This document shows positions 3,167-21,860 of a DNA stretch of 64,000 bases, one piece after another. Each line of letters begins with the position of its first letter. Position 1 is the first letter of the stretch. The position numbers and the translations under genes are program-made. The stretch lies in assembly GCA_029239755.1 (NCBI GenBank), contig JARBUI010000007.1:82040-146039 (forward strand), read 5' to 3'. Source of the DNA: Clostridia bacterium (GTDB lineage Bacteria > Bacillota > Clostridia > Lachnospirales > Cellulosilyticaceae). The notes under the pieces were generated by a model. That model was not told the origin of the DNA. It was given only the letters and a program-made list of their open reading frames with translations, and did not search any database.

Positions 3167-4642
3167 TCATTCTTCTAAATTAATTTTACTTCCCCATACA
3201 GATATCCCCTCTTTAGAAACAGCAGTAAAACTCATAACATAAACTCCTGCATCTTCATCCCAAGAGTAAATAAAGTAACCCTTATAAATAGTACCGTCTA
3301 GTGTGAGTTCAATTTTATTATCATTTATTTTTTTCCACTTACCGCCTACTGCTCCTGTAACCTTTCCTTTTTTATCCAGCACAATGTCTTTAGATTGTTT
3401 CATATTAGGATCAATATCTTTTCCATGATTAATCATTTTGTAGGTCCCTATGATGTCTTTGTTTTTATATGTGCCAATTTCCTCTCCTGCATAGCGATGC
3501 GGAACGACAACTGGCCATCCTTCATCGTTAAAGAGCATTTGGTGTACACGGACTTCATAGGCTCCGCCTCTGCCTTCAAATCGTGTATGAAAGAAAAGAA
3601 AATATTTATTACTTTCCTCATCATAATATGCTGAATTATGACCTGGTGAGCGGTAGCCTGTTGTCTTTTTATCCGGTTCTCCATCGCTTTTAACAAATTC
3701 ATAGCTGCCCATAAGTTTTACCCCATAAGGCTCAATCGATTGATCATCAAAGAAAGACCCGTCCGCTCCTTTACATGCCATCATATCCTTATCTTCCGAA
3801 TCAAAATAAGGTCCATCTGGTGACTTTGAGCGTACAACTCTTATATTATAGCCATCTTGGGCTCCCAGCCCCCCAAAGGATAAAAACATATAATAATAAT
3901 CAGTTTCCTTATTATAAAGGATATAAGCTCCTTCTATCCGGCTATGATTACCCCCAAGGAGTTTTTTTCCATAACCCTGACCTTCATACGGAAATCCTGT
4001 CTCTGGATTCATTTTCAAGATAAAAATACCACCGGAATAAGAGCCATAGACCATCCATAGATTTCCTTCTTTATCAAAAAAGGTATCCGGATCTACTGCA
4101 TTGGGGTGCATTGTCGCATCATATGGCGATCCATCATTACTTAATTCATCTTCCATGCCTGATTTTAAAATTTCTCCTAAATCCTTATAGGGTCCTTCTA
4201 TGTTATCCGCTGCTGCAAGGCCTAAATAAGATCTTGGTGAATCCCCTTTACATGCACAATAATACATATAGAATTTGCCATCTGGAAGCTCTATAATATC
4301 TCCTGCCCAAAAGGTTGATGTCTTTGACCATTTTAACGCCTCTCCTAACTCTTCACGGGCATTAGGAACCAATTTATTTCCTCTTTGAGGAGCTGTAGAA
4401 ATTTGAGTCCATTGCATTAAGTCCTTGGTCTTTGCGGACTGCAGATGTGAGCCAATGACATAATAAGTATCTTTAACTTTTATGACAGAAGGGTCATGTA
4501 CGGATACGTCAGCAAATATTGGAGGGACTAATTTCTTCTCACTGCTTACTTCGTTGCTTCTCATGCAGCCTGATACAAATACTAGACTGACTATTATCAT
4601 AGCAACAATTTTTTCAACTCTTACTATTCCTTTTATTCTCAT
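3167..4642 (-). CDS. Extracellular GH43 arabinanase lipoprotein
   Basis: This is a surface enzyme likely to cleave alpha-1,5-arabinan. The N-terminus has a lipoprotein signal with lipobox VSGC (Cys26), so it should be tethered to the outer face of the membrane. The five-bladed GH43 fold is recognisable from HDPSVIKVKDTYYVIGSH (catalytic base Asp near residue 50), AVDPDTFFDKEGNLWMVYGS (pKa-modulating Asp) and SRIEGAYIL (acid Glu). A C-terminal beta domain of roughly 110 residues (from GTYKNKDIIG) matches the accessory domain of B. subtilis Abn2-like enzymes. It starts 35 bases after the GH51 gene and is the last gene of the operon. Endo- rather than exo-action is suggested by overall similarity but not shown. 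Confidence 0.85.
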   Translation of the reverse strand: MRIKGIVRVEKIVAMIIVSLVFVSGCMRSNEVSSEKKLVPPIFADVSVHDPSVIKVKDTYYVIGSHLQSAKTKDLMQWTQISTAPQRGNKLVPNAREELGEALKWSKTSTFWAGDIIELPDGKFYMYYCACKGDSPRSYLGLAAADNIEGPYKDLGEILKSGMEDELSNDGSPYDATMHPNAVDPDTFFDKEGNLWMVYGSYSGGIFILKMNPETGFPYEGQGYGKKLLGGNHSRIEGAYILYNKETDYYYMFLSFGGLGAQDGYNIRVVRSKSPDGPYFDSEDKDMMACKGADGSFFDDQSIEPYGVKLMGSYEFVKSDGEPDKKTTGYRSPGHNSAYYDEESNKYFLFFHTRFEGRGGAYEVRVHQMLFNDEGWPVVVPHRYAGEEIGTYKNKDIIGTYKMINHGKDIDPNMKQSKDIVLDKKGKVTGAVGGKWKKINDNKIELTLDGTIYKGYFIYSWDEDAGVYVMSFTAVSKEGISVWGSKINLEE

Positions 4643-4677: not shown

Positions 4678-6714
4678 TTAGTTTGTCTTTAAACGTAGTA
4701 TAACAAAGGATTGTGCTGGCATTTCATATGAAAACTCAGGAGCTGCATCTTCAAAAACTGATACTTGTTCAATTACTTTTCTCGGTTCTTCTAATGTATT
4801 CTTATCCATTTTGTTTTCTGATGTCAGAGAGGTAACGCAGGCTTTACTATTTATATATTCAGCATTTTGAAGCTGGATATTAACAGCATGAGACTTCTCA
4901 TCTATATTAACCATTTTGATGATAATATCCCCTGTTTTTTCATCTTTACTTGCAATACTATAAATAGGTAATCTCTTATGCTGTGGCAATGCAGATAAAC
5001 TTGCAATGTCTGTTTTCAATGTATAGGTCCCCATGTTATTGCCAAACATCTTTTGTACATAGTAGCTTACCGAGCCATAAACTCTTGTATTATCAAACCA
5101 AATAAGATCTGGCTGCCACTGAATATTAGTTGTCTTTGCAAATAGCGGCGCATAGGCAGTCATTCCTACAACATCTGAGTTCCTTTCAAGCCCTGTCATA
5201 AATGCTGCTTCGCAAAGTGCTGAATATAGATTATTTTCTCCCTGTTTTGAAGGACCTCCGTTTGTATGACAGGCATATTCTCCTGCAAAAACTTTACTGC
5301 TTATGCCATCTTCATATCTTGGATAATTATCATAACGACTATCATTGTCTAAAAACCAATCTGGAGACATGTAATAATGTTCATCTACTAATTCTGCATA
5401 AACCTTACCCTGACCAATATACTCTTTTGTTTTTTCTGTAATAATATCCCATGCAATATCAAATTCCTTACCATTCGGGAAGGGCCCGCTGGTTGTAATC
5501 AGCTGAATGTCAGGATACTTTTCTTTAATGCGGTTTCTAAAAACTTCATAGGTCTCGAAATATTTATCTTGATTTGGCGTATCATAATCTATCCACTGTT
5601 CATTGCCTATGCCTAAGTAAACAAGATTAAAAGGTTCCGTGTGCCCATCTGCAATTCTTTTTGCTCCCCATTCGGTTGTCTCATCACCATTTGCATACTC
5701 GATAAGATCCAGTGCATCCTGCACAAAAGGCTCAATATTATCGGCAACTTCCTTGCCTTGGAACTGACAGCTCATGCCACAGTTTATAATTGGCAGAGGC
5801 GCTGCCCCTATATCTTCTGAAAGCTGGAAGTACTCATAGAAACCTAGCCCATAGGTTTGGTTATAGGGCGCGTCTTGCCACTCCTCCCATCTATTCCAGT
5901 TGGTTTTTCTGTGCTCTACAGGTCCTATAGTATCCTTCCAATTATAGGCATTTGCTAAATATTTTCCCTCTACTATACATCCCCCTGGAAAACGCATAAA
6001 CTTAGGCTGAAGATCCTTGAGTATTTGAACAAGATCCTCTCTTAAACCATTTTTTCTGTTTGCCCAAGTATTTCCCGGGAATAAAGATACCATATCTAAA
6101 CTTAAAGTTCCTTCATTATCGAATCTTATGCTTAGCTTAGCATTTGCATCGCTTCTCTTGCTGATTAATACGGCTTCATATTTATGCCATGTATGACTTA
6201 GTTCATGATTACTTATCGTATGTTCAGCATAGAGTTCGCCTGTTTTGCTCTCTAATAAAACATGTATATTCCCTTTGTAATCATTATTTTTAAGAAACAC
6301 TGAAAGGTTATAGCTCTGGCTTTCATTAAGTGCAATTCCCCCAAAGCCTGTATTGCTTATGCCTACTCCTTCTCCAGTTTCTTCTATGGTTACTTCTAGG
6401 TAATGAGGATTGTTTTGATGAATAGGCTCCTCATTTTCTCTAGCTATTTTAAACTTACCGTTTCCTTTTATGAATTTTTCCCATGCATAGAAATAGTCAT
6501 CAAATTTAGAGAACCTGTCCTTAAAGACTCCAAATTCAAATGATCTATTTTGAATAAGTTCTGCGTATAGCCCTCCGTCTGCGCCGTAGTTAATATCTTC
6601 AAAGAAAACCCCTATGAAAGTAGGACTAATGTCCACTCCTTTTGAGCCTGCATCTATCTTTATGCTATAATTTTCTTGTGGATGTAAAAAGTCTAGCTTG
6701 TGTGTTTTTATCAT
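4678..6714 (-). CDS. GH51 alpha-L-arabinofuranosidase with carbohydrate-binding insert
   Basis: This is a 678-residue GH51 enzyme of the longer type. After a short N-terminal segment (IGVFFEDINYGADGGLYAELIQNRSFEF) comes a CBM4/9-like beta-sandwich at about residues 75-215. The (beta/alpha)8 domain follows with MRFPGGCIVEG, the acid/base Glu in GIGNEQW (near 372) and the nucleophile Glu in FAGEYACHT (near 485), and then the C-terminal beta domain. No signal peptide is visible, so it probably acts on imported oligosaccharides in the cytoplasm. Some relatives of this architecture are exported, however. It sits between a chemoreceptor gene and the GH43 lipoprotein gene in the arabinan operon and is paralogous to the shorter AbfA encoded at the operon start. 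Confidence 0.9.
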   Translation of the reverse strand: MIKTHKLDFLHPQENYSIKIDAGSKGVDISPTFIGVFFEDINYGADGGLYAELIQNRSFEFGVFKDRFSKFDDYFYAWEKFIKGNGKFKIARENEEPIHQNNPHYLEVTIEETGEGVGISNTGFGGIALNESQSYNLSVFLKNNDYKGNIHVLLESKTGELYAEHTISNHELSHTWHKYEAVLISKRSDANAKLSIRFDNEGTLSLDMVSLFPGNTWANRKNGLREDLVQILKDLQPKFMRFPGGCIVEGKYLANAYNWKDTIGPVEHRKTNWNRWEEWQDAPYNQTYGLGFYEYFQLSEDIGAAPLPIINCGMSCQFQGKEVADNIEPFVQDALDLIEYANGDETTEWGAKRIADGHTEPFNLVYLGIGNEQWIDYDTPNQDKYFETYEVFRNRIKEKYPDIQLITTSGPFPNGKEFDIAWDIITEKTKEYIGQGKVYAELVDEHYYMSPDWFLDNDSRYDNYPRYEDGISSKVFAGEYACHTNGGPSKQGENNLYSALCEAAFMTGLERNSDVVGMTAYAPLFAKTTNIQWQPDLIWFDNTRVYGSVSYYVQKMFGNNMGTYTLKTDIASLSALPQHKRLPIYSIASKDEKTGDIIIKMVNIDEKSHAVNIQLQNAEYINSKACVTSLTSENKMDKNTLEEPRKVIEQVSVFEDAAPEFSYEMPAQSFVILRLKTN

Positions 6715-6782: not shown

Positions 6783-8903
6783 TTATTTAAACTTAGAGTA
6801 GGTAACTTTTAAAGCGTTCATACTCTCTAATAACTTATTCGCCATAGTACTTATTTTTTGCGCATAGTGTGTTTGCTGCACACTTTCTGCTGTTACCTCT
6901 TCACTTGCGCTTGCCGATTGATTAACGATCTGAGATACCTCAGCCATTTTTGTAACCACTTCTTCTTTCCGCCGTGCCACTTCTTTAAGAATATAATTTA
7001 CATGATCAACTTGCCTATTAATAGTTCCCATTTGCTCGTCTATATGAGAGAAGGTGTCCGCTGCAGAATTTACTATTGGAACCTGATTATAAAATACACA
7101 AGTAGCTTTTTGAAGTTCTTCAAGCGTAGATTCTTTTTTGTCATGAATAGTCCTTATCGTTTGATCTATAGTGGATATAGCTGCTTGTGTTTGGTAAGAC
7201 AGCTTTCTAACTTCATCAGCCACCACCGCAAAGCCTCGCCCCGCTTCCCCTGCTCTTGCAGCTTCAATAGCTGCATTAAGAGACAAAAGATTAGTCTGAT
7301 CATTAACTCCTTTTATAAGACTAAGAATATGACTAATTTTACTTACCTCATTTCCAAGCTCTTCAACTTTAACGCGTACAGCTCCGCTTATAGCAATAGT
7401 ATCTTTTGTTTGATCTGATAACTGCCCTAACTGACTCTTTGCTCTTAGGCTCATCCCCATTGTTTTTTTCGAAGAGTGCTGAACTTCGCTTATCGTATCC
7501 GTTAACCTATTGATATGCGAAGACAGTTCCTCAACGATTACAAGTGAACTATCTATTTCCTTACTTTGACTTTGGGCTCCCTCGGCAATGCTTTCAATAG
7601 CCGCCTCAACATCTTTAGCAGATACAGAAGTATCCATAGCTAGCTGCAAAAGCAGAGCAGTATTTTCTTCAACTGTTCCTGTGACCTCTTTAGCATTTGC
7701 AATAAGCATTTTAAGGGAAGCAATCATATCAGTAAAACCTATTATAAGAAGCTTTATTTCTAAACTTGTTACATGAACATCTTTTTTAAGGGCTTCCTCT
7801 ATGTCTAAGTTACCCTCCTGTATTTGACTCATAAACATTGTCAGTTTTGAAAGAGGTATAGCAATTCTGCGTCCTATCCCTATACTGACGATAACTATAA
7901 TGATAAGACATATGATAATAATGCCTGTAACCTGCCCCCAAACATTAGATAAATCTTTCATGAGTATATGACTTGGTGCCTGGCTAACGACTCTCCAGCC
8001 ATTTGTAAGCTTAGAAAAACTGAGCAATCCACCTGGCAGCATAACCGTATCAGATTCTTTTTGAGAAGAGTTTATCGTATCCAACCATTTTGCATTTGCC
8101 TGGCTGACCTGTTTTCCTATTAAGTCTGCATTGTTAGCTAATATAATAGTGTTATCTCTGTCCAGCACCATAATCGGTATACTTTTATTAACACTGGCTA
8201 AATCTAAGAAGTTTTGATAATAACTGGCATTTAAGTTAAATATTCCTATGGTATTATTATTATCCGAAATTTTACGAGCTACATAAATGCCATTGGCACT
8301 CACTTTTTCATTTGTATCCTTATCGATATTTAGTGAGAACCAAGTACTTGCCGCAGATTCACCTTTCATCACACGCTTGTATGTATCTGAACTTCTGAAT
8401 GCGTCACTTTCTAAATAGGTAATGAGTTTACTTGAATGAAACTCTGTCCCTATAAGTTTTCTTTTGAATATTACCTTATCATCACTGAGAATATATAGCC
8501 CTTCTATTGAATTATCTTTAGAGGTTATCCCTGCAAGCAAAGCAGGAAGTGTATCTTTTTCAAATACCTTCTTTTCAATTCCCTTTATTTCATTAAACCT
8601 TACTGTATAGTTCTGAAATTCATTATGATTCGTTAAGCTTGCAATCGATAGACTTGTTACATCTAAGTAATAATTCATATTATATGTAAGCTGATCTATA
8701 ATTTTTTGAGAATAGCCTGTTAAAGATGCTTCAACAGAAGAATTAGCTTTGGACTTAGTAAGTGACGTTACTATAAGACAGGGAGTCATGCTTAGAATAA
8801 GAAATAGTCCTATTAACTGATAAAGCAGCCTGCTATTTGCGAGTACTCTCTTTATTTTTATTCCTTCAACCTTGCGAGATCGTCTATAAATATTTTTTTT
8901 CAT
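6783..8903 (-). CDS. Methyl-accepting chemotaxis protein inside the arabinan operon
   Basis: This is a transmembrane chemoreceptor of 706 residues. TM1 is at about residues 30-50, a periplasmic dCache-like sensor spans about 50-320, TM2 is near 325-345 ([20 protein letters not shown]), followed by HAMP and a signalling domain with the conserved tip [35 protein letters not shown]. The gene lies between two arabinan-hydrolase genes with intergenic gaps of 52 and 68 bases, so it is probably co-expressed with them. That makes arabinose or arabino-oligosaccharides plausible ligands, possibly through the binding protein encoded in the same operon. The sensor domain itself does not reveal the ligand. 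GGGAGG lies seven bases before the ATG. It is clearly paralogous to the receptor at 53157. Confidence 0.92.
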
Positions 8904-8955: not shown

Positions 8956-10005
8956 CTATTTGATTTCATTTAGCTCTCTGCTGCTCTTCATTTTTAGATT
9001 AGGCGTGCCATCTTCATTCCAATAAATAGGTTTAATTCTTGTATGCCTATTCGGATCTGCGAGTGCGTCATTTCCAATGAGTTCTTTATAAGGACGTGCA
9101 TGATAAACTAATAAGTCCTCACCCTTTTCTGATACTGTAAAAGAATTATGCCCTGGGCCAAACTCACCTTCTAGATCTGAAGTTGTCAGAATAGGAACTG
9201 CTGACTTTTGCCACGATGACTTATTTAATAGATCACTTGTATCATCTGCTGTTAATAGACCAATACAGTATTCTTCTCCCGTACCTGCAGCTGAGTAGGT
9301 TAAAAATATTTTATTATTCTTCTTAATGACAGCAGGCCCTTCGTTGACAGCATATCTTACTTTTTCCCAGTCGTATTCAGGCTTTGAAAGCATAACTGGA
9401 GTGCCTTCTATCGTCCATGGATTTTTAAGCTTTGCAATATAAAGATTGGAGTTAGCCCGGCCTGACTTTTGTGCCCAAACCAGATAATTTACGCCTTGAT
9501 GTTCAAATGTCGTAGCATCCAGCGAAAAACTATCCAGTCCAAAATCTATTTTCCCCTTTTCAATCCATTTTCCTTCTAATGGGTTTGCTTCATCGCATTC
9601 TAATACATACTGGCGTATAGCCCAAATATCCTCTGCCGCTCCAGCTGCAAAATAGATATACCATTTATTATCTATAAAGTGAATTTCTGGTGCCCATATA
9701 TGTGCGCCCATTTCTCCAACTGCGTGTTTTTTCCATATTACCTTTTCTTCTGCAGCTGCAAGCCCCTCTATTGTCTTTGACCTTCTTAGAACAATCTGAT
9801 CGAAGGCTGGCACAGAAGCGGTAAAATAGTAGTATCCATCCGTATGTTTATAAATTTGAGGGTCTGCACGCTGCTCTATAAAAGGATTTGGATACGCACT
9901 TAGTTCTTTATGTTTTGTTTTGTTTTTTATAAATATAATACTTATCACTCCAATCATGATTACCCCTGTAATCAAAAAAATCTTGTTTATTCTTTTTATT
10001 TTCAT
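8956..10005 (-). CDS. GH43 family enzyme, membrane-anchored, probable alpha-L-arabinofuranosidase
   Basis: The ORF track begins at 10074, but AAAGGAAG precedes the ATG at 10005, giving MKIKRINKIFLITGV and a 349-residue protein. An N-terminal hydrophobic segment (about residues 8-27) has no cysteine lipobox, so it is an uncleaved anchor or a signal peptide. The GH43 propeller shows ADPQIYKHTDGYYYFTAS (base Asp), LDATTFEHQGVNYLVWAQ and NEGPAVIKKN (acid Glu). FGPGHNSFTVSEKGEDLLVYHAR is typical of GH43 subfamily 26-like exo-acting arabinofuranosidases. Together with the GH43 lipoprotein it would trim arabinan outside the cell. Subfamily and linkage specificity are inferred from motif resemblance only. 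Confidence 0.82.
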   Translation of the reverse strand: MKIKRINKIFLITGVIMIGVISIIFIKNKTKHKELSAYPNPFIEQRADPQIYKHTDGYYYFTASVPAFDQIVLRRSKTIEGLAAAEEKVIWKKHAVGEMGAHIWAPEIHFIDNKWYIYFAAGAAEDIWAIRQYVLECDEANPLEGKWIEKGKIDFGLDSFSLDATTFEHQGVNYLVWAQKSGRANSNLYIAKLKNPWTIEGTPVMLSKPEYDWEKVRYAVNEGPAVIKKNNKIFLTYSAAGTGEEYCIGLLTADDTSDLLNKSSWQKSAVPILTTSDLEGEFGPGHNSFTVSEKGEDLLVYHARPYKELIGNDALADPNRHTRIKPIYWNEDGTPNLKMKSSRELNEIK

Positions 10006-10087
10006 AACTATAACTTCCTTTTCTAAGCTAAATAAATAAAGATTTATAAGCTTTATTACTATATATACAGTCATTTTTATCGCACGA

Positions 10088-10155: not shown

Positions 10156-11028
10156 CTACCCTTTTACTCCACCTGCTGTCATACCCTCAATAAAGTATTG
10201 TTGGAAGAATAAAAACACAATAAGTATAGGAAGAATTGCCATAACTGAACCAGCAATAAGTACGTCGTAGTTATTACCATATGGTGTAATAAGAGTAGCA
10301 AGACCTATAGGTAATGTAAATTTCTCCTGAGATCTTAGTACGATTAACGGCCATAAAAATCCATTCCAGCTGTTCATCCCTACAAATATACCCATTGCAG
10401 CAAAAGATGGTGCCATAAGTGGCAGGATAATCCTACCAAAGATCCCATATTCTGAACATCCATCAATTCTGCCTGCTTCCATAAGCTCTCTAGGGATACC
10501 GCTTAAATACTGCCTAAAGAAGAAAATTGGAGCCGGTGCGGCCACAAATGGAAGAATAATTCCCCACATAGAGTCAATAAGCTTCATCCCTACTATTTGT
10601 TTATATAAAGGCAGCATAATGATTTCCATAGGTATCATCATAATCAAAATAACACACATAAAGATTTGGTTTTTATATTTAAAGTCATACATAGCAAAAC
10701 CATAGCCAACGATCGCACTTACTATAAGTGTGAGTGCAGCTTGAATAAATGTGATAAAGATGCTATTTTTAAACCACATAAAATAATTGTTTTCCCCTGT
10801 AAATAAGAAAATAAAATTCTTTAATGACATATTCGGGAAGTCAAGTCTAATATTAAGTCCGTATCTTAATAACTCTTTAGACGGCCTAAACGCTGCTAGT
10901 GTAATACAAAAGATCGGAAAGAGCACAATGAGCGCTAAGGCTATGAAAAAGAGAAACATAAGTATTGCTGATGGTGTTATCTGTGTTTTTTCTTTAAATT
11001 CTTTTTGTTTTTTCTTTTTGCTCATCAT
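10156..11028 (-). CDS. ABC sugar importer permease (MalG/AraQ-like)
   Basis: This is a 290-residue inner-membrane permease of the carbohydrate uptake 1 family with six predicted segments. The EAA loop is ELMEAGRIDGCSEYGIFGRIILPLMAP at about residues 190-215, the site that contacts the ATPase. It ends in GMTAGGVKG, the usual C-terminus of MalG-like permeases. GGGAGG lies upstream, and the start codon abuts the stop codon of the MalF-like gene, so the pair is translationally coupled. With its neighbours it would import arabinose-containing oligosaccharides. No ATPase gene is present, so a shared MsmX-type ATPase is expected. Confidence 0.9.
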   Translation of the reverse strand: MMSKKKKQKEFKEKTQITPSAILMFLFFIALALIVLFPIFCITLAAFRPSKELLRYGLNIRLDFPNMSLKNFIFLFTGENNYFMWFKNSIFITFIQAALTLIVSAIVGYGFAMYDFKYKNQIFMCVILIMMIPMEIIMLPLYKQIVGMKLIDSMWGIILPFVAAPAPIFFFRQYLSGIPRELMEAGRIDGCSEYGIFGRIILPLMAPSFAAMGIFVGMNSWNGFLWPLIVLRSQEKFTLPIGLATLITPYGNNYDVLIAGSVMAILPILIVFLFFQQYFIEGMTAGGVKG

Positions 11029-11958
11029 CTAATCCTCCCTCTTGAATAATCCAAATATATTGAGCTGTGCGAAATTAAGGATTAAGGCAAATAAGAGCAG
11101 TACAATACCAATTGCACATCCAAATCCTATGTTATTTTGTTCCCAGCCCTGTCTGTATAAATAACCTATGATAGTGAGTCCCATATCTTTAGGTGATTTA
11201 TTATTAGTAAAGATAATATAGCTTTCAGTAAACATTGCCATACCGCCATAAATACTAATTGTTAAAACATAGATTGTAATAGGTTTAAGCATTGGCATCG
11301 TTATGTGAAAGAACCTTTGCAGCGCAGTTGCCCCGTCTAGCGAAGCTGATTCATTGACTTCCTCAGGAATGTTCTGAAGACCTGATAAGAAATATAGGAT
11401 ATTTACTCCAGTCCATCTCCAGCAAGCTAAGAATAATAGTGCTGCAAAAGAAGTCTCTTGGATTCTAAGCCATTTAATTGGATGAAATCCAAACACTCCT
11501 ATCAATTGATTCATTAAAGAACCTGGTAACTCACCAAATATAAGCCTAAAAACCGTACCTGCAACAACAACAGAAGTTAATGCAGGAATGAATAATGTCG
11601 ATCTAAAGAAGTTTCTTCCTATCATTTTTTTGCTGTTTAGGAGACAGGCCAAAATCATTGGTCCTGGAATAAGTAATGCAAGTGTTAATATTGTATAAAC
11701 CACACTGTTCTTAATAGCTTTAAAAAAAGTGGGGTTAAGTAAGTTTTTATAATTCTCAAATCCTATAAATTCTATCTTTCCAGGTAAAACCGTCTGAAAA
11801 CTCATTACTCCTATAGAGATAACGGGATAAATAAAGAACACTATGAAAATAATAATAAATGGTGATATAAATACATATGGCGCTATTGTAGGTGAATATA
11901 GAAAGTCCCTTAGTCCCTTATGTTTACCTGCAGCTTTATTAGTATCACTATTCATCAT
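11029..11958 (-). CDS. ABC sugar importer permease (MalF/AraP-like)
   Basis: This 309-residue permease forms the heterodimer partner of the MalG-like protein encoded immediately downstream. After a cytoplasmic N-terminus come six hydrophobic segments. The EAA loop is EEVNESASLDGATALQRFFHITMPMLKP at about residues 205-230. GGAGGGAG precedes the paired ATG codons. It is separated from the binding-protein gene by a strong hairpin, so its transcript level is probably lower. The substrate is inferred from the operon, which encodes arabinan hydrolases on both sides. Confidence 0.9.
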   Translation of the reverse strand: MMNSDTNKAAGKHKGLRDFLYSPTIAPYVFISPFIIIFIVFFIYPVISIGVMSFQTVLPGKIEFIGFENYKNLLNPTFFKAIKNSVVYTILTLALLIPGPMILACLLNSKKMIGRNFFRSTLFIPALTSVVVAGTVFRLIFGELPGSLMNQLIGVFGFHPIKWLRIQETSFAALLFLACWRWTGVNILYFLSGLQNIPEEVNESASLDGATALQRFFHITMPMLKPITIYVLTISIYGGMAMFTESYIIFTNNKSPKDMGLTIIGYLYRQGWEQNNIGFGCAIGIVLLLFALILNFAQLNIFGLFKRED

Positions 11959-12065: not shown

Positions 12066-13412
12066 CTATTTAAGCTTACTTTGTTCATCAGCTACAAGTG
12101 CAGCAGGATCTTCTAAATCTTCAAATGCTCTAAAGAGTGTAGTCGTTTTAAGTGCATCCATAACCTTTGGAAGGTTTTCACCTGCAGTAATCGCTGGTAT
12201 TTCCTCTTTAATTTCATTAAGAACATCAAATGGGCTGTTTAAGAAAAAGTCTGTAAATTTGTTTGGTTCTTTGAGAGCTGGGTCACTCCATACTTCTGTT
12301 CTAATTGGATCAAAGCCTAGTGTTTTCCAGATTTCAATATTTCCTTCTTTTGATAACTTAGCAAATGCTAAGAAATCTTTTGCAAGCTGTGGATCTTTTG
12401 CTTGGTTTGTAACAGCTGTACCTGTTCCGCCAAGACCTACAGAACGAGGCTGACCTTTTTCCCATACTGGGTTTGGAGCAATCATCATTTTTTGATTTAG
12501 GTCAGGCATGTAGTCTGTGAATCTTCCCATGTACCAAAGTGGCATACTTACTGAAGCAGCTCCGCCGTTATTCATGAAACCATAATATTCTTCTGCATGA
12601 TGGAATCCGCCTGGAGCCACTACAATAGAACCTTCTTTAATCATATCTTGAACAAGTGTCATGGCTTTAATAAACTCTGGTGAATCAACATTTGGAGAGC
12701 CGTCTGCCTTAAGAAGGTCACCGCCTTGTGAAGAAAGCATTGGCCAGAATGACCATGGGTCTGCTGTTTCACAAGTTGCCATTGGAACTCCTGTTTTCTC
12801 TAAAACAGTTTTTCCTGCTTTTCTAAAGTCATCCCATGTAACGATAGTTGCTGGATCAACCCCTGCCTGATCTAAAATTTCTTTATTATAGTAAGTTACA
12901 GAGGCTCCGATGTGGAAGCAAATACCATAATATTTATCATCTTTACCATAAATCTGTACACGTCCTTTTACGATGTTATCAATTTCTGGATCGACAATAT
13001 CATTTAAAGGAAGTAGTTGTGGGTCACCTTTAAGGTAATTTGCGAATTTACCAAGCTCAATATCCGCTATATCTGGTGCACCTGTGCCTGACTGAAGTGC
13101 AATGAGTAATTTACTGTGCATATCGTCATATGGAAGTACTGTGTAGTTAAGTTTAATCTGTCTGTCTGGATTTTTTTCATTCCAAACACCAGCCATTTTT
13201 TCATAGAAACCTGTATGTATTTCTTGGAATGTCCATAGCTCTAATGTTTTAGCGTCCCCTGATGCTGCTGGTGCTTCTTCAGTTTTTGCCTCTGAAGCTG
13301 TCTCTTTCGTCTCTGCTGGTGCTTCAGTAGTAGGAGCCTGCCCCCCGCCGCATCCTGCTAACATTGTCCCAGCTAACATTACACTTGCTAATTTTGCTGC
13401 AATTTTTTTCAT
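12066..13412 (-). CDS. ABC sugar-binding lipoprotein
   Basis: This 448-residue extracytoplasmic solute-binding protein of family 1 has a lipoprotein signal peptide with lipobox LAGC (Cys at about residue 21) followed by a Gly, Glu and Thr-rich linker. The mature part has the family features LELWTFQEIHTGFYEKM, DIADIELGKFANYL, YYNKEILDQAGVDP and GGTGTAVTNQAKDPQLAKDFLAF. It captures sugar for the two permeases encoded downstream and could also present ligand to the chemoreceptor of the same operon. It starts only 14 bases after abfA, with AGGGAGG well placed. Arabino-oligosaccharides are the likely ligand, inferred from context. Confidence 0.92.
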   Translation of the reverse strand: MKKIAAKLASVMLAGTMLAGCGGGQAPTTEAPAETKETASEAKTEEAPAASGDAKTLELWTFQEIHTGFYEKMAGVWNEKNPDRQIKLNYTVLPYDDMHSKLLIALQSGTGAPDIADIELGKFANYLKGDPQLLPLNDIVDPEIDNIVKGRVQIYGKDDKYYGICFHIGASVTYYNKEILDQAGVDPATIVTWDDFRKAGKTVLEKTGVPMATCETADPWSFWPMLSSQGGDLLKADGSPNVDSPEFIKAMTLVQDMIKEGSIVVAPGGFHHAEEYYGFMNNGGAASVSMPLWYMGRFTDYMPDLNQKMMIAPNPVWEKGQPRSVGLGGTGTAVTNQAKDPQLAKDFLAFAKLSKEGNIEIWKTLGFDPIRTEVWSDPALKEPNKFTDFFLNSPFDVLNEIKEEIPAITAGENLPKVMDALKTTTLFRAFEDLEDPAALVADEQSKLK

Positions 13413-13426
13413 AATTTATACCCTCC

Positions 13427-14947
<1,521 letters not shown>

Positions 14948-15071
14948 TTACCTCTTTTCCAATTGCTTTAGTTATAAGTATAATAATCACTATTCAAGTC
15001 CAAAACCAATACAGCTTTATTTACTTTACTTTTTTCTAAACTATTACATATTTTATTAAACCTTTTATAAT

Positions 15072-15100
15072 ACTTATTATATACCAAACATATAATAAGT
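15072..15100. promoter_or_regulatory. Perfect 11-7-11 palindromic operator candidate over the abfA promoter
   Basis: ACTTATTATAT and ATATAATAAGT are perfect inverted repeats separated by ACCAAAC. The palindrome covers the end of the -35 hexamer, the whole spacer and the -10 box of the operon promoter, so a protein bound here would block RNA polymerase. The adjacent ArsR-like regulator is the obvious candidate ligand, by inference. Confidence 0.7.
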
Positions 15101-15103
15101 CAA
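15076..15103 (-). promoter_or_regulatory. Sigma-A promoter of the arabinan operon
   Basis: On the minus strand the sequence reads TTGACT, a 16-bp spacer, then TATAAT. It is the best promoter in the intergenic region and points at abfA. Confidence 0.75.
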
Positions 15104-15268: not shown

Positions 15269-15288
15269 ACTTTAGATTTTACTAAAGT
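15269..15288. promoter_or_regulatory. Short palindrome ACTTTAG-N6-CTAAAGT
   Basis: These are perfect 7-bp arms about 170 bp upstream of the operon promoter. It could be a secondary operator or chance in AT-rich DNA. Its arms differ from those of the main palindrome. Confidence 0.3.
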
Positions 15289-15386: not shown

Positions 15387-15445
15387 AAGCAGAAGGTATT
15401 TAGAATTTAAAGACTATATCTTTAAGTTCTAAATACCTTCTGCTT
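15387..15445 (-). terminator. Terminator of the ArsR-like regulator gene
   Basis: Perfect 19-bp arms (beginning AAGCAGAAGG) are followed by a weak internal extension and a T-rich run on the minus strand. It starts 14 bases after the stop codon. Confidence 0.75.
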
Positions 15446-15458
15446 ACATGTTTCTAAC

Positions 15459-16367
15459 TTACTCGTATATCATTCTAGCATTAATATGCTGATTGTAATT
15501 ACCGAAACCTTTACCAAAAATAGTAAGTCCTCCTACATTTTCAGCATCGATTGGCACCCCTACCTTTAAAGTGATCTCACTCTTATAATTTATCTCCAGT
15601 TCATCAATACACAGATCACCAATTCTCTTCCCATCCATAAATGACCCATCTTTATTAATGGAAAGCAGCTTTAATAATCCGTACTGATTCCAATTAGGTG
15701 TCCACCACGAAGGTGTATAAATGCCCCTAATAACCCCAAAGTCTCCTGGGCTAGTCCAATACCCTAAGTATTCATTATTAAGATGAAAGTGGATATCACT
15801 TGGCCAGTCTTCACAATATCCCGGTGCTTCAGAAGAAATCTCAAATGAAATTTGGATTTCTGTGAGCTTTTGATTAGATTTTAAATAATTTGGAATTCTA
15901 TATTCTACAAATCCTTTACCAAACCATATAATACTCGCATCGCTTCTTTCAGGCGCGTCAAAATACCTTGGATCATCTACTTCTCCAATAATTGAAGTCT
16001 TTGTAGATATACCGCATGTAGGAAAAATATTATAGTTAGTATAACTTCCAACAGGAATTTCAACTATATACATGCTATCTCTAGCCACATCTACAAGAAA
16101 GTCTATCATCAGTCTGTTTTCTTTGAGATGGCATATCTTTTGGGAACCACGTTTTCCAGACATGAGAACAACATCAATAATACCTGCGTCTACAAGTATT
16201 TTCATATGCTGCGTCATAGCACCATTCGTAATATTTAACTGGCTTGCTAATTCATTAAGGTTCATTTGCTTATTTTTAGAAAGAATCTTTATCAGATTCA
16301 TTCGCACGGTTGAGCCTAACGCCTTGCATACTTCTACCGTTTCTTCTGCACTTGATATTTCTCTCAT
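15459..16367 (-). CDS. ArsR-family HTH regulator with large C-terminal beta-rich domain, probable arabinan operon regulator
   Basis: Residues 1-90 form an ArsR-type winged helix: VCKALGSTVRMNLIKILSKNKQMNLNELAS, with recognition helix NITNGAMTQHMKILVDAG. Typical ArsR proteins stop near 100-120 residues, but this one continues for about 210 more. That C-terminal part is rich in aromatic and polar residues (GYCEDWPSDIHFHLNNEYLGYW, TPSWWTPNWNQYGLL) and reads like a beta-sandwich ligand-binding fold. No ArsR metal-site cysteine cluster is seen. It lies directly upstream of the arabinan operon in the same orientation and has its own promoter and terminator. I infer a one-component sugar-responsive regulator. 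Whether it represses or activates is not evident, although the promoter-covering palindrome favours repression. Confidence 0.75.
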   Translation of the reverse strand: MREISSAEETVEVCKALGSTVRMNLIKILSKNKQMNLNELASQLNITNGAMTQHMKILVDAGIIDVVLMSGKRGSQKICHLKENRLMIDFLVDVARDSMYIVEIPVGSYTNYNIFPTCGISTKTSIIGEVDDPRYFDAPERSDASIIWFGKGFVEYRIPNYLKSNQKLTEIQISFEISSEAPGYCEDWPSDIHFHLNNEYLGYWTSPGDFGVIRGIYTPSWWTPNWNQYGLLKLLSINKDGSFMDGKRIGDLCIDELEINYKSEITLKVGVPIDAENVGGLTIFGKGFGNYNQHINARMIYE

Positions 16368-16405
16368 TATTTCTCAACCTTTTCCTTTAGTATTTTCTAA
16401 AATAG

Positions 16406-16434
16406 ATTATAACCTTATTATCCTTCTGTTACAA
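16406..16434 (-). promoter_or_regulatory. Sigma-A promoter of the ArsR-like regulator gene
   Basis: The minus strand reads TTGTAA, 17 bases, then TATAAT, ending about 38 bases before the start codon. An imperfect palindrome TATTTT-CT-AAAATA at 16391-16404 overlaps the expected transcription start and could serve autoregulation. Confidence 0.7.
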
Positions 16435-16510
16435 GTGTTTGACAAAATTTTTAACAGTTGACAACCTAAGTTTTATATTTTTCTAAATCAATTCAACCTT
16501 AAAACCACTT

Positions 16511-19446: not shown

Positions 19447-20751
19447 TTATTTGTTTTTTGCTTTATTTTTATTTCCATTAACTGTAGTTTCATTTTCATT
19501 AATTGTAGTTGCAGCTTTATTTTGTTTAACCACAACTTTATTTTCTTTAGCTACAGTTTTACTTTCTTTAACAATAATTTCAAGAATTGTAGATTTTCCT
19601 TCTGCCGTTTCAAATTTAATATCTGCTATTTGTCCTGCTTTTAAAGAATTTGCATTAGGCTGTTTTTTAGCCCCTTCATATTTTACTTTTGTTTTATTGC
19701 CAAATGAAATCTTAAGCTGTCCGCCTTCTTGTGCGCCACCTTGTACAACAATATATTTTCCACTGTTATTTACTTCTATTATTTTAGCATCTTTAAGAAG
19801 TGTTTCTTTTTTCTCATCGTCTTTATCTTCTTCTGTCTTTTGCCCAAGCATCTTTATTTCAAATGCAAGTGTTTGAGGCGGTACTGAAGATGATACAACA
19901 GTTGAGTGTTTTACACTAACTTCCATACCAGCTTTAAGATCTGCTAAAGTATATGCTTTTGTATCACTTTCGCTAGTTATTTTTGTAACATCAGAAATAT
20001 TTAAAATAGTGTAGTTTTCAGCTTTATCCTCAGTTCCTTCTTTGTAAATAGTAACTGTCTTACTTTCAACTTTTACTTCTTTGATAATAGCTTTAGCGAT
20101 TTCTACTTTTTGCGCAAGCATCTTTATTTCAAATGCTTCTGTTTGTGGTGGTACTGCAGATGACACAACGGTTGAGTGTTTTACACTAACTTCCATACCA
20201 GCTTTAAGATCTGCTAAAGCATATGCTTTTGTATCACTTTCGCTAGTTATCTTTGTAGCATCAGAAATATTTAAAATAGTGTAGTTTTCAGTCTTATCCT
20301 CAGTTCCTGCTTTGTAAATAGTAACTGTCTTACTTTCAACTTTTACTTCTTTGATAATAGCTTTAGCAATTTCTACTGTGCCTGTAGTTGTTGGTGTTAC
20401 CACAAATGCACCGCTTGTGGTCGTTGGATTCGTCTGAATGGTCCCACTTGTAGTTGTTGATGTTGTTATTTGCTGAGGTGATGTAGTCATAGTAACTGTG
20501 TTGTTATTAAATTGTGTCTGAAGCCCCAAAATTTTTGCTACATCAGCTAATGGTACGTAAGTTTTGTTATCATAAGCAATTGTTTTTGAATCCGCAAGTA
20601 CTTTCTCACCATTTAAAGTATAAGAAATAGCTGGGTTAACATATGCTTTGACTGATTTCATAGCTGGCTTAGCAACAAGCGTAAAACTTAATACACCTAT
20701 TGTGCCAAAAAAGGCTACAGCTTTTAATTTTTTTGCAAAATATTGATTCAT
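19447..20751 (-). CDS. Secreted stalk-domain (copper amine oxidase N-like) protein with duplicated repeat
   Basis: The signal peptide (about residues 1-32) is followed by a copper-amine-oxidase-N-like stalk domain (YTLNGEKVLADSKTIAYDNKTYVPLADVAKILGL, about 43-95) and a Thr-rich linker. Two nearly identical 90-residue repeats follow (about 125-305), each starting VEIAKAIIKEVKVESKTVTIYK and ending FEIKMLAQK or FEIKMLGQK. The C-terminus is Lys/Asn-rich and resembles DUF5666-like segments. The protein is exported and may bind the cell wall. It is encoded 56 bases downstream of the RsgI-like gene, so it is probably part of the same regulon or operon. Its function is unknown. The repeat pair is almost identical at DNA level, pointing to recent duplication. 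Confidence 0.75.
   Translation of the reverse strand: MNQYFAKKLKAVAFFGTIGVLSFTLVAKPAMKSVKAYVNPAISYTLNGEKVLADSKTIAYDNKTYVPLADVAKILGLQTQFNNNTVTMTTSPQQITTSTTTSGTIQTNPTTTSGAFVVTPTTTGTVEIAKAIIKEVKVESKTVTIYKAGTEDKTENYTILNISDATKITSESDTKAYALADLKAGMEVSVKHSTVVSSAVPPQTEAFEIKMLAQKVEIAKAIIKEVKVESKTVTIYKEGTEDKAENYTILNISDVTKITSESDTKAYTLADLKAGMEVSVKHSTVVSSSVPPQTLAFEIKMLGQKTEEDKDDEKKETLLKDAKIIEVNNSGKYIVVQGGAQEGGQLKISFGNKTKVKYEGAKKQPNANSLKAGQIADIKFETAEGKSTILEIIVKESKTVAKENKVVVKQNKAATTINENETTVNGNKNKAKNK
19841..20376 (-). repeat. 270-bp tandem duplication within the stalk-protein gene
   Basis: Segments 19841-20106 and 20111-20376 align without gaps, with a period of 270 bp and only scattered substitutions by eye. 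The period is an exact multiple of three, so each copy encodes one 90-residue domain. Unit number could change by recombination without breaking the frame. Confidence 0.9.
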
Positions 20752-20807: not shown

Positions 20808-21860
20808 TTATTTTTTAGAGTTATTTTTCTTTATTTTACCGCCTTGTTTGTTGTGTACTTTCTTATTCTGTTTATTGCTAGTTTTATTATCTTGAGTTTG
20901 ATTTATTTTACTATCTTTTTTTTTATCTCCATTAACCTGCTCTTTATTGTTTTGCTGATTAGCTGCTTTATTATCTTTCTTTGTTTCACTCTGATCTTTG
21001 GATAATTGATCTAGTTCAGTTTCATTATCTGTTTCATTTCTATCTTGACTATCAGAAGTTTCTGGAAGTGTGTTATCTTGTTTATCAGCTTTACTATTTT
21101 CCTTCATGTCTTTTTTAAGTTCTTTTATTGATTTCATAATTTCCTTAACAGAAGTATCCTTATATTCCTCTACTACTATTTTGTCATCTAAAGCCTGTAA
21201 CTTTTGTATAAGGTTAAGCTTTCCAGGGGTAATCCCTATTTCTTTTGCCTCAACCCTTCGCTCAAGTGCCACATTTTCTGTTATGACTTCAACCTCAATT
21301 TCTTGCACTGCAATATATTCTTCTGCGGCTTCTTTAGAAGCTTCAGTCAGCTTTTGTGCTTCCTCACTATCATCAGTGACTGAAGTAAGAGCAACTGCTC
21401 CCCCACCTTCTTTATTAAAGAATCCTTCTTTGTCAGCTTCTTCGATAATCTCTTTCACCCCTGCCTCAACCTTCTTATTGAGGACACTGGTGATTTCTAG
21501 AATTTTTTCGCCTTCTCTATTATAACCTTTGGCTTCTACAATCCTATCCCATCTATTAATTCCTAGTTCTATACTAGGATTGATATCAACATCCAGATAG
21601 GCTACTGGTTCTTTATAGTAACTGTGCCCCTTAACAATTCCTGTAAGCAGCAGCATGCACACCACCACAGATGCTACCATTACATTCTTAGAATATACAT
21701 TCCAGAAGTACCTTTTTTTAATTCCTGCTTTATGCAATACGGATGATTTAATTCTAGCTGCCGTTTGAGTATTAACTGCAAAAAGTACATTCGTATCTAA
21801 TAACTGATCAACTTCTTCTAAGCTTAATTCTTCAAGTATATTTGTTAATTCAGTTTCCAC
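20808..21860 (-). CDS. RsgI-like membrane anti-sigma factor
   Basis: This 350-residue single-pass protein has a cytoplasmic N-terminus (residues 1-55, a candidate sigma-binding region), one transmembrane helix (about 56-75, VMVASVVVCMLLLTGIVKG) and then YLDVDINPSIELGINRWDRIVEAKGYN. That segment is the hallmark of the RsgI periplasmic domain, in which characterised clostridial members are cleaved between Asn and Pro of the NPS motif. A helical segment and a very polar Lys/Asn/Gln tail of about 100 residues follow. It starts with GTG (AAGGAG eight bases upstream) and overlaps the sigma gene by 11 bp, so translation is coupled. It likely holds the ECF sigma factor at the membrane. The N-terminal domain does not look like the usual SigI-binding module. 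Confidence 0.8.
   Translation of the reverse strand: METELTNILEELSLEEVDQLLDTNVLFAVNTQTAARIKSSVLHKAGIKKRYFWNVYSKNVMVASVVVCMLLLTGIVKGHSYYKEPVAYLDVDINPSIELGINRWDRIVEAKGYNREGEKILEITSVLNKKVEAGVKEIIEEADKEGFFNKEGGGAVALTSVTDDSEEAQKLTEASKEAAEEYIAVQEIEVEVITENVALERRVEAKEIGITPGKLNLIQKLQALDDKIVVEEYKDTSVKEIMKSIKELKKDMKENSKADKQDNTLPETSDSQDRNETDNETELDQLSKDQSETKKDNKAANQQNNKEQVNGDKKKDSKINQTQDNKTSNKQNKKVHNKQGGKIKKNNSKK

Follow-up and report, generated by a model that had tools for sequence, protein, structure and literature searches.

The window, that is, the whole stretch of DNA that was analysed, has a length of 64,000 nucleotides and carries the regulator gene at 15459..16367 on the minus strand. The gene is a real open reading frame (ORF) with ATG as start codon and encodes a protein of 302 residues—an ArsR-type helix-turn-helix (HTH) and an undescribed C-terminal domain. 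The next gene downstream, in tandem on the same strand, is arfA (13427..14944, minus strand), with which the proposed target operon begins. Its product is an ArfA-type GH51 arabinosylfuranosidase (NF051901, 791 bits). The same-strand order continues with a sugar ABC importer, a GH43 enzyme, a chemoreceptor, a second GH51 enzyme, and a secreted GH43 enzyme, all on the minus strand. The importer comprises a substrate-binding protein (SBP; 12066..13412; profile match) and two permeases (11029..11958 and 10156..11028), proposed as operon members on the basis of ORF and context. Profile matches identify the arabinanase/arabinofuranosidase-type GH43 enzyme (8956..10074), the second GH51 enzyme of 678 residues (4678..6714), and the secreted, AbnB-like GH43 enzyme featuring a lipocalin-like GH43_C domain (3167..4642). 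The preliminary description had placed an arabinan operon next to the regulator, and its parts—ArfA-type GH51, second GH51, two GH43 enzymes, and sugar ABC importer—are all real.

The chemoreceptor between the GH43 and GH51 genes of the cluster is a methyl-accepting chemotaxis protein whose sensor region is Cache-like (6783-8903, minus strand). A protein of the same family also occurs near the regulator in a congener locus (L043); the placement in both suggests that chemotaxis is linked to arabinan. A few kilobases from the arabinan cluster lies an RsgI-like anti-sigma factor (PF23750, 110 bits; 20808-21860, minus strand), which features a lysine-rich low-complexity tail and no obvious carbohydrate-binding module. 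In addition, the window carries a surface protein with a copper-amine-oxidase-N domain (19447-20751, minus strand), in which a VEIAKAIIKEVKVESKTVTIYK... unit occurs twice as a long, near-identical internal repeat.

The ArsR-type winged-helix DNA-binding domain spans residues ~11–85 (16113..16337, minus strand) and is found by Pfam and NCBIfam profiles. The Pfam models HTH_20 (34.1 bits) and HTH_5/ArsR (27.6 bits) exceed their cut-offs; the NCBIfam metalloregulator model NF033788 scores 43.4 bits and stays below its cut-off of 55 bits. The nearest PDB entries by sequence and by model fold are ArsR/SmtB/NolR/BigR-type proteins, which match the N-terminal part alone. The winged helix is shared with the ArsR/SmtB metalloregulators CzrA, SmtB, and CadC, which among PDB entries match this part best in both sequence and fold; these are metal sensors of ~100–120 residues, whereas the regulator is longer by ~205 residues and lacks a CxC metal motif. 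Its alpha-3 region reads NELASQL as opposed to the ELCVCDL type of metalloregulators. Among 101 family members, the only HTH columns with more than 10 Cys residues are 61 and 79. C79, in the HTH wing, is conserved in 84/101 and C118, early in the C-terminal domain, in 101/101; a structural, redox, or metal role is possible.

The C-terminal domain, the proposed sugar sensor, comprises ~205 residues (~95–302; 15462..16085, minus strand). Searches of Pfam, NCBIfam, and PDB sequences gave no match for it, whether it was queried as a single sequence, as a 16-member family, or as a 53-member family. The large second domain behind an ArsR HTH, as had been noticed at the outset, is confirmed. AlphaFold2 models of the full protein and of the C-terminal domain, both built from a two-sequence input, were of low confidence (pLDDT of 45.5 and 40.7, respectively). 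The C-terminal model is all-β with about 10 strands, and a Foldseek search with it returned no match below 0.001. The nonsignificant top matches are mostly jelly-roll or other β proteins—many of them viral capsids, lectins, and similar sandwiches. When the sensor domain was compared at profile level with GH2, GH43, GH51, GH127, SBP, and other neighbor families, nothing significant emerged; the GH2 sugar-binding domain profile reached a nonsignificant E = 0.028 at a probability of 1.8%. The jelly-roll or CBM-like fold of the preliminary description, for which structure prediction and a fold search had been proposed, is hence compatible with the all-β model but, given the low pLDDT and the lack of a significant Foldseek match, not established.

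Full-length relatives occur in many lineages, and the architecture is neither a chance fusion nor an annotation artefact. Identity to the regulator is 81 to 85% within the genus and ~50% within the order. At ~40% identity, full-length relatives are found on plasmids of Rhizobium, Sinorhizobium, Enterococcus, Deinococcus, Priestia, and Paenibacillus, and the architecture is conserved in Bacillota, rhizobia, and Deinococcus. The length of nearly all these relatives falls between 300 and 330 residues. Genomes of one family (f54) carry two to seven copies. With the C-terminal domain alone as query, 25 of 399 genomes of the phylum gave a match; nearly all matching proteins have 300 to 350 residues, so domain and HTH travel together. 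One distant genome of the phylum encodes a 710-residue putative lipoprotein (L126 184-2316, minus strand; same gene L132 5110-7242), detected as a C-terminal-domain match, which features an N-terminal signal and a lipobox-like Cys and carries the domain without an HTH. A Pfam search of this whole protein found no domain. The domain is therefore able to exist apart from DNA binding.

Two Enterococcus members are encoded on plasmids: In E. faecalis plasmid NZ_CP092577 (L036), an ORF 65% identical to ArfA adjoins the regulator at a position without a gene entry in PLSDB, and in an E. raffinosus megaplasmid (L174), the regulator is flanked by a GH43 gene and a gene for an oligosaccharide MFS transporter. 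The regulator and the arabinan genes may move together between enterococci. Scans of viral contigs found no relatives, and a scan of genome contigs found only one. Occurrences of the domain in Listeria and other "phage" records were not counted as phage genes; the records are unannotated short contigs.

The gene neighborhoods of the family are those of arabinan and galactose utilization. Around 103 domain-bearing genes in the loci compared, the typical neighbors are either GH51, GH43, GH127, araA, and an FGGY sugar kinase or galK, galT, and GH2, in addition to importer genes. A survey of the architecture near GH43 and GH51 genes had been suggested beforehand. Of the 36 close, core-type members of the same order, 27 have a GH51 gene within 10 kb, where random placement in these genomes would give 0.38, with the reservation that the family sequences are mutually related and that linkage and site counts are not independent. 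Alphaproteobacterial members—in Rhizobium, Sinorhizobium, Bosea, and Roseomonas—adjoin annotated alpha-N-arabinofuranosidase genes.

The two kinds of neighborhood follow the phylogeny. A maximum-likelihood tree of 101 members, rooted at the midpoint, separates two branches with a support of 100/99. The arabinan branch holds 70 rows, 47 with arabinose markers (GH51/GH43/araA) and 2 with galactose markers; the galactose branch holds 31 rows, 26 with galactose markers (galK/galT/GH2) and, at its base, 2 rhizobial rows with GH51. Changes between the arabinose and galactose labels along the tree are fewer than in every shuffle. Exceptions to the context rule are two members of the arabinan branch (L071 and L162) adjoined by GH2, and the basal rhizobial members of the galactose branch adjoined by GH51. 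The branches differ consistently at eight alignment positions: four are polar swaps in the C-terminal domain, namely 218 T/N, 227 N/T, 282 T/N, and 290 N/D, and one lies in the DNA-recognition region, 52 T/A. The pyranose form of L-arabinose has the ring stereochemistry of D-galactose minus C6, which makes a switch of the sensor between both sugars chemically plausible.

Across the 101 members, conservation is highest mainly in the C-terminal domain, at C118, F136, W148, G152, Y156, E176, S179, E180, S190, N197, D209, W221, W222, Q228, G230, G280, G285, and G289, of which G280 and G289 fall in the motifs GG279-280 and FG288-289. Could this domain be a dimerization or oligomerization module only, with effector sensing located elsewhere or left to a partner protein? 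The poor models, in which no pocket can be demonstrated, would be in line with this, but the large set of invariant residues, polar and aromatic (C118, W148, Y156, E176, S179, E180, S190, D209, W221, W222, and Q228), and the polar branch-specific swaps suggest a ligand site rather than an interface, and the presence of the domain without an HTH in the 710-residue putative lipoprotein likewise speaks against it; we consider a pure oligomerization role unlikely. For the ~205-residue domain, we lean slightly toward an undescribed carbohydrate-sensing family that, joined to an ArsR-type winged helix, forms widespread repressors diversified between L-arabinose and D-galactose and was also recruited, without the DNA-binding domain, into an extracytoplasmic lipoprotein.

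The regulator has a promoter of sequence TTGTAA-17-TATAAT at 16406..16434 (minus strand; promoter scan). The arfA promoter, TTGACT-16-TATAAT, lies at 15076..15103 (minus strand), matches the consensus at 11/12 positions, and is conserved in congeners. Just past the regulator stop codon, at 15387..15445, lies a 26-bp inverted repeat with a 7-nt loop and 25/26 positions paired by eye. The terminator scan did not list this repeat; from its sequence, it is probably a transcription end.

A candidate operator of 16 bp, TTTAG-N6-CTAAA, is conserved in the aligned upstream regions of three congeners. An exact copy, TTTAGTATTTTCTAAA, lies at 16386..16401, starts four bases after the −10 box of the regulator, is kept in both congeners, and is the candidate autorepression site; a copy with one mismatch lies upstream of the regulator promoter at 16472..16487 (pattern search). 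On the arfA side, an exact copy, TTTAGATTTTACTAAA, is located at 15271..15286, ~170 bp upstream of the arfA promoter, and a copy with one mismatch at 15025..15040 in the arfA 5′ leader, ~36 nt past the −10 box. All four sites sit in the two intergenic regions flanking the regulator; over the whole window, the total of one-mismatch matches is not above chance. The genome as a whole contains 21 exact sites, and only two of them, both at the regulator/arfA locus, occupy an intergenic position upstream of a gene; all others are inside ORFs except one, which precedes no gene. The predicted regulon is therefore local.

The operator is also recovered from the family. A de novo search for inverted repeats, for which the motif was not used as input, found TTTAG-6-CTAAA in 13 of 46 upstream regions of the core arabinan branch, compared with 0.1 expected in shuffles. 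With up to one mismatch, 33 of these 46 regulators have it at a spacer of 6, and 0 to 6 at spacers of 2 to 5 and 7 to 10. Sites within one mismatch are likewise overrepresented upstream of GH51, GH43, and SBP genes in regions separate from the regulator (21/88 versus 14/443 for other genes). A second sub-branch, rich in f54 members and including the Paenibacillus plasmid member, features ATTAAT-N6-ATTAAT within one mismatch in 8 of 22 cases—another half-site at an equal 6-bp spacer. Upstream of the galactose-branch regulators, TTTAG-N6-CTAAA occurs within one mismatch in 0/31, and a search of these 31 members for a palindromic operator of their own found none.

A repressor role and autorepression are predicted because the sites lie at or after the start, abutting the −10 box of the regulator and inside the arfA leader; repression was likewise argued from site position for ArbR (PMC8579813). 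From sequence and gene context, we infer that the regulator binds its operator as a dimer, that it represses, and that a sugar is the effector. In the proposed mechanism, the ArsR-type winged-helix dimer would bind TTTAG-N6-CTAAA over the regulator start region as well as in and upstream of the arfA leader, and would block transcription of the regulator gene and the arfA operon. L-arabinose or a short arabino-oligosaccharide—presumed as effector because of the function and placement of the system—would enter via the ABC importer and bind the C-terminal domain, whereupon the regulator would leave the DNA. Paralogues of the sister branch would do likewise for galactose or β-galactosides, with another operator sequence.

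The geometry at arfA is less clear than at the regulator, as the leader site has one mismatch and the exact site is far upstream. This far site at 15271-15286 may aid through looping or form a second control point. An activator or dual regulator of the arabinan operon could also be proposed from it, since the sole exact operator on the arfA side lies ~170 bp upstream of the −35 box; however, the best-conserved sites overlap promoters or come after them, and the upstream and leader sites jointly fit repression with looping too, which leaves activation a little less credible than the oligomerization role above. An ordinary metal- or redox-sensing ArsR/SmtB protein with coincidental neighbors is very improbable: the ArsR-type HTH, the conservation of C79 (84/101) and C118 (101/101), and the existence of redox-sensing ArsR proteins—such as RexT, which senses H2O2 (PMC8960804)—would allow for it, but the score under the NCBI metalloregulator cut-off, the lack of a CxC motif in alpha-3, and the sugar-gene linkage across phyla oppose it, and the metal-sensor reading was rejected on motif and gene context. 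The one-component sugar regulator on an ArsR-type winged helix, as first proposed, receives strong support from the broad arabinan/galactose linkage and the conserved operator in the right promoters. Taken as a whole, the protein is likely a one-component, autorepressing, local repressor of the arfA-led arabinan operon that would be released by arabinose or arabino-oligosaccharides, with sister paralogues acting likewise for galactose.

AraR of Bacillus and Clostridium is a one-component arabinose-responsive repressor of arabinan genes, composed of a GntR-type HTH and a LacI-like sensor. It works like the regulator proposed here, but its DNA-binding and sensor domains are unrelated. AraR is also cited in the report of the closest precedent, ArbA/ArbR, an ArsR-family regulator predicted beside abfA in Caldicellulosiruptor in 2021 (PMC8579813). 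Both systems feature an ArsR-type regulator adjoining an α-L-arabinofuranosidase gene—here the GH51 gene arfA—and a predicted repressor function; several sites are spread over the regulator/abfA intergenic region and the leader there, and sites lie at 16386-16401 and 15025-15040 here. ArbA/ArbR is divergent from abfA, whereas the regulator here is in tandem with arfA. The available part of that account holds no analysis of the C-terminal half and no wider family, and the likeness is drawn from its description. Unnamed "ArsR family" regulators in the arabinan cluster of Geobacillus 56T3 (PMC4428132) and by the ara genes of Lactobacillus rossiae (PMC4855831) share the annotation and the type of neighborhood; they appear in tables and gene maps only, without mechanism or domain, and are likened by annotation. 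Open-access full texts yielded no literature on the C-terminal domain or the galactose branch. The class had been called poorly described, which is fair apart from the one earlier prediction, ArbA/ArbR. This kind of regulator hence has one computational precedent, judged from the available part of PMC8579813; newly described here are the uncatalogued domain and its breadth, along with the arabinose/galactose split and the operator. The sensor domain is probably new.

Proteins of the family carry the label "ArsR family transcriptional regulator," which invites a wrong reading as metal resistance. Extra ArsR regulators in a sugar-utilising Bacillus have been read as metal tolerance (PMC11575207); these may or may not belong to the family described here. 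Treating its proteins instead as candidate arabinose/galactose regulators would supply many polysaccharide loci of gut, soil, and rhizobial bacteria with a regulator and would define a new sensor domain—with the paired paralogues and the 16-bp operator as a test set for the coupling of a winged helix to sugar binding.
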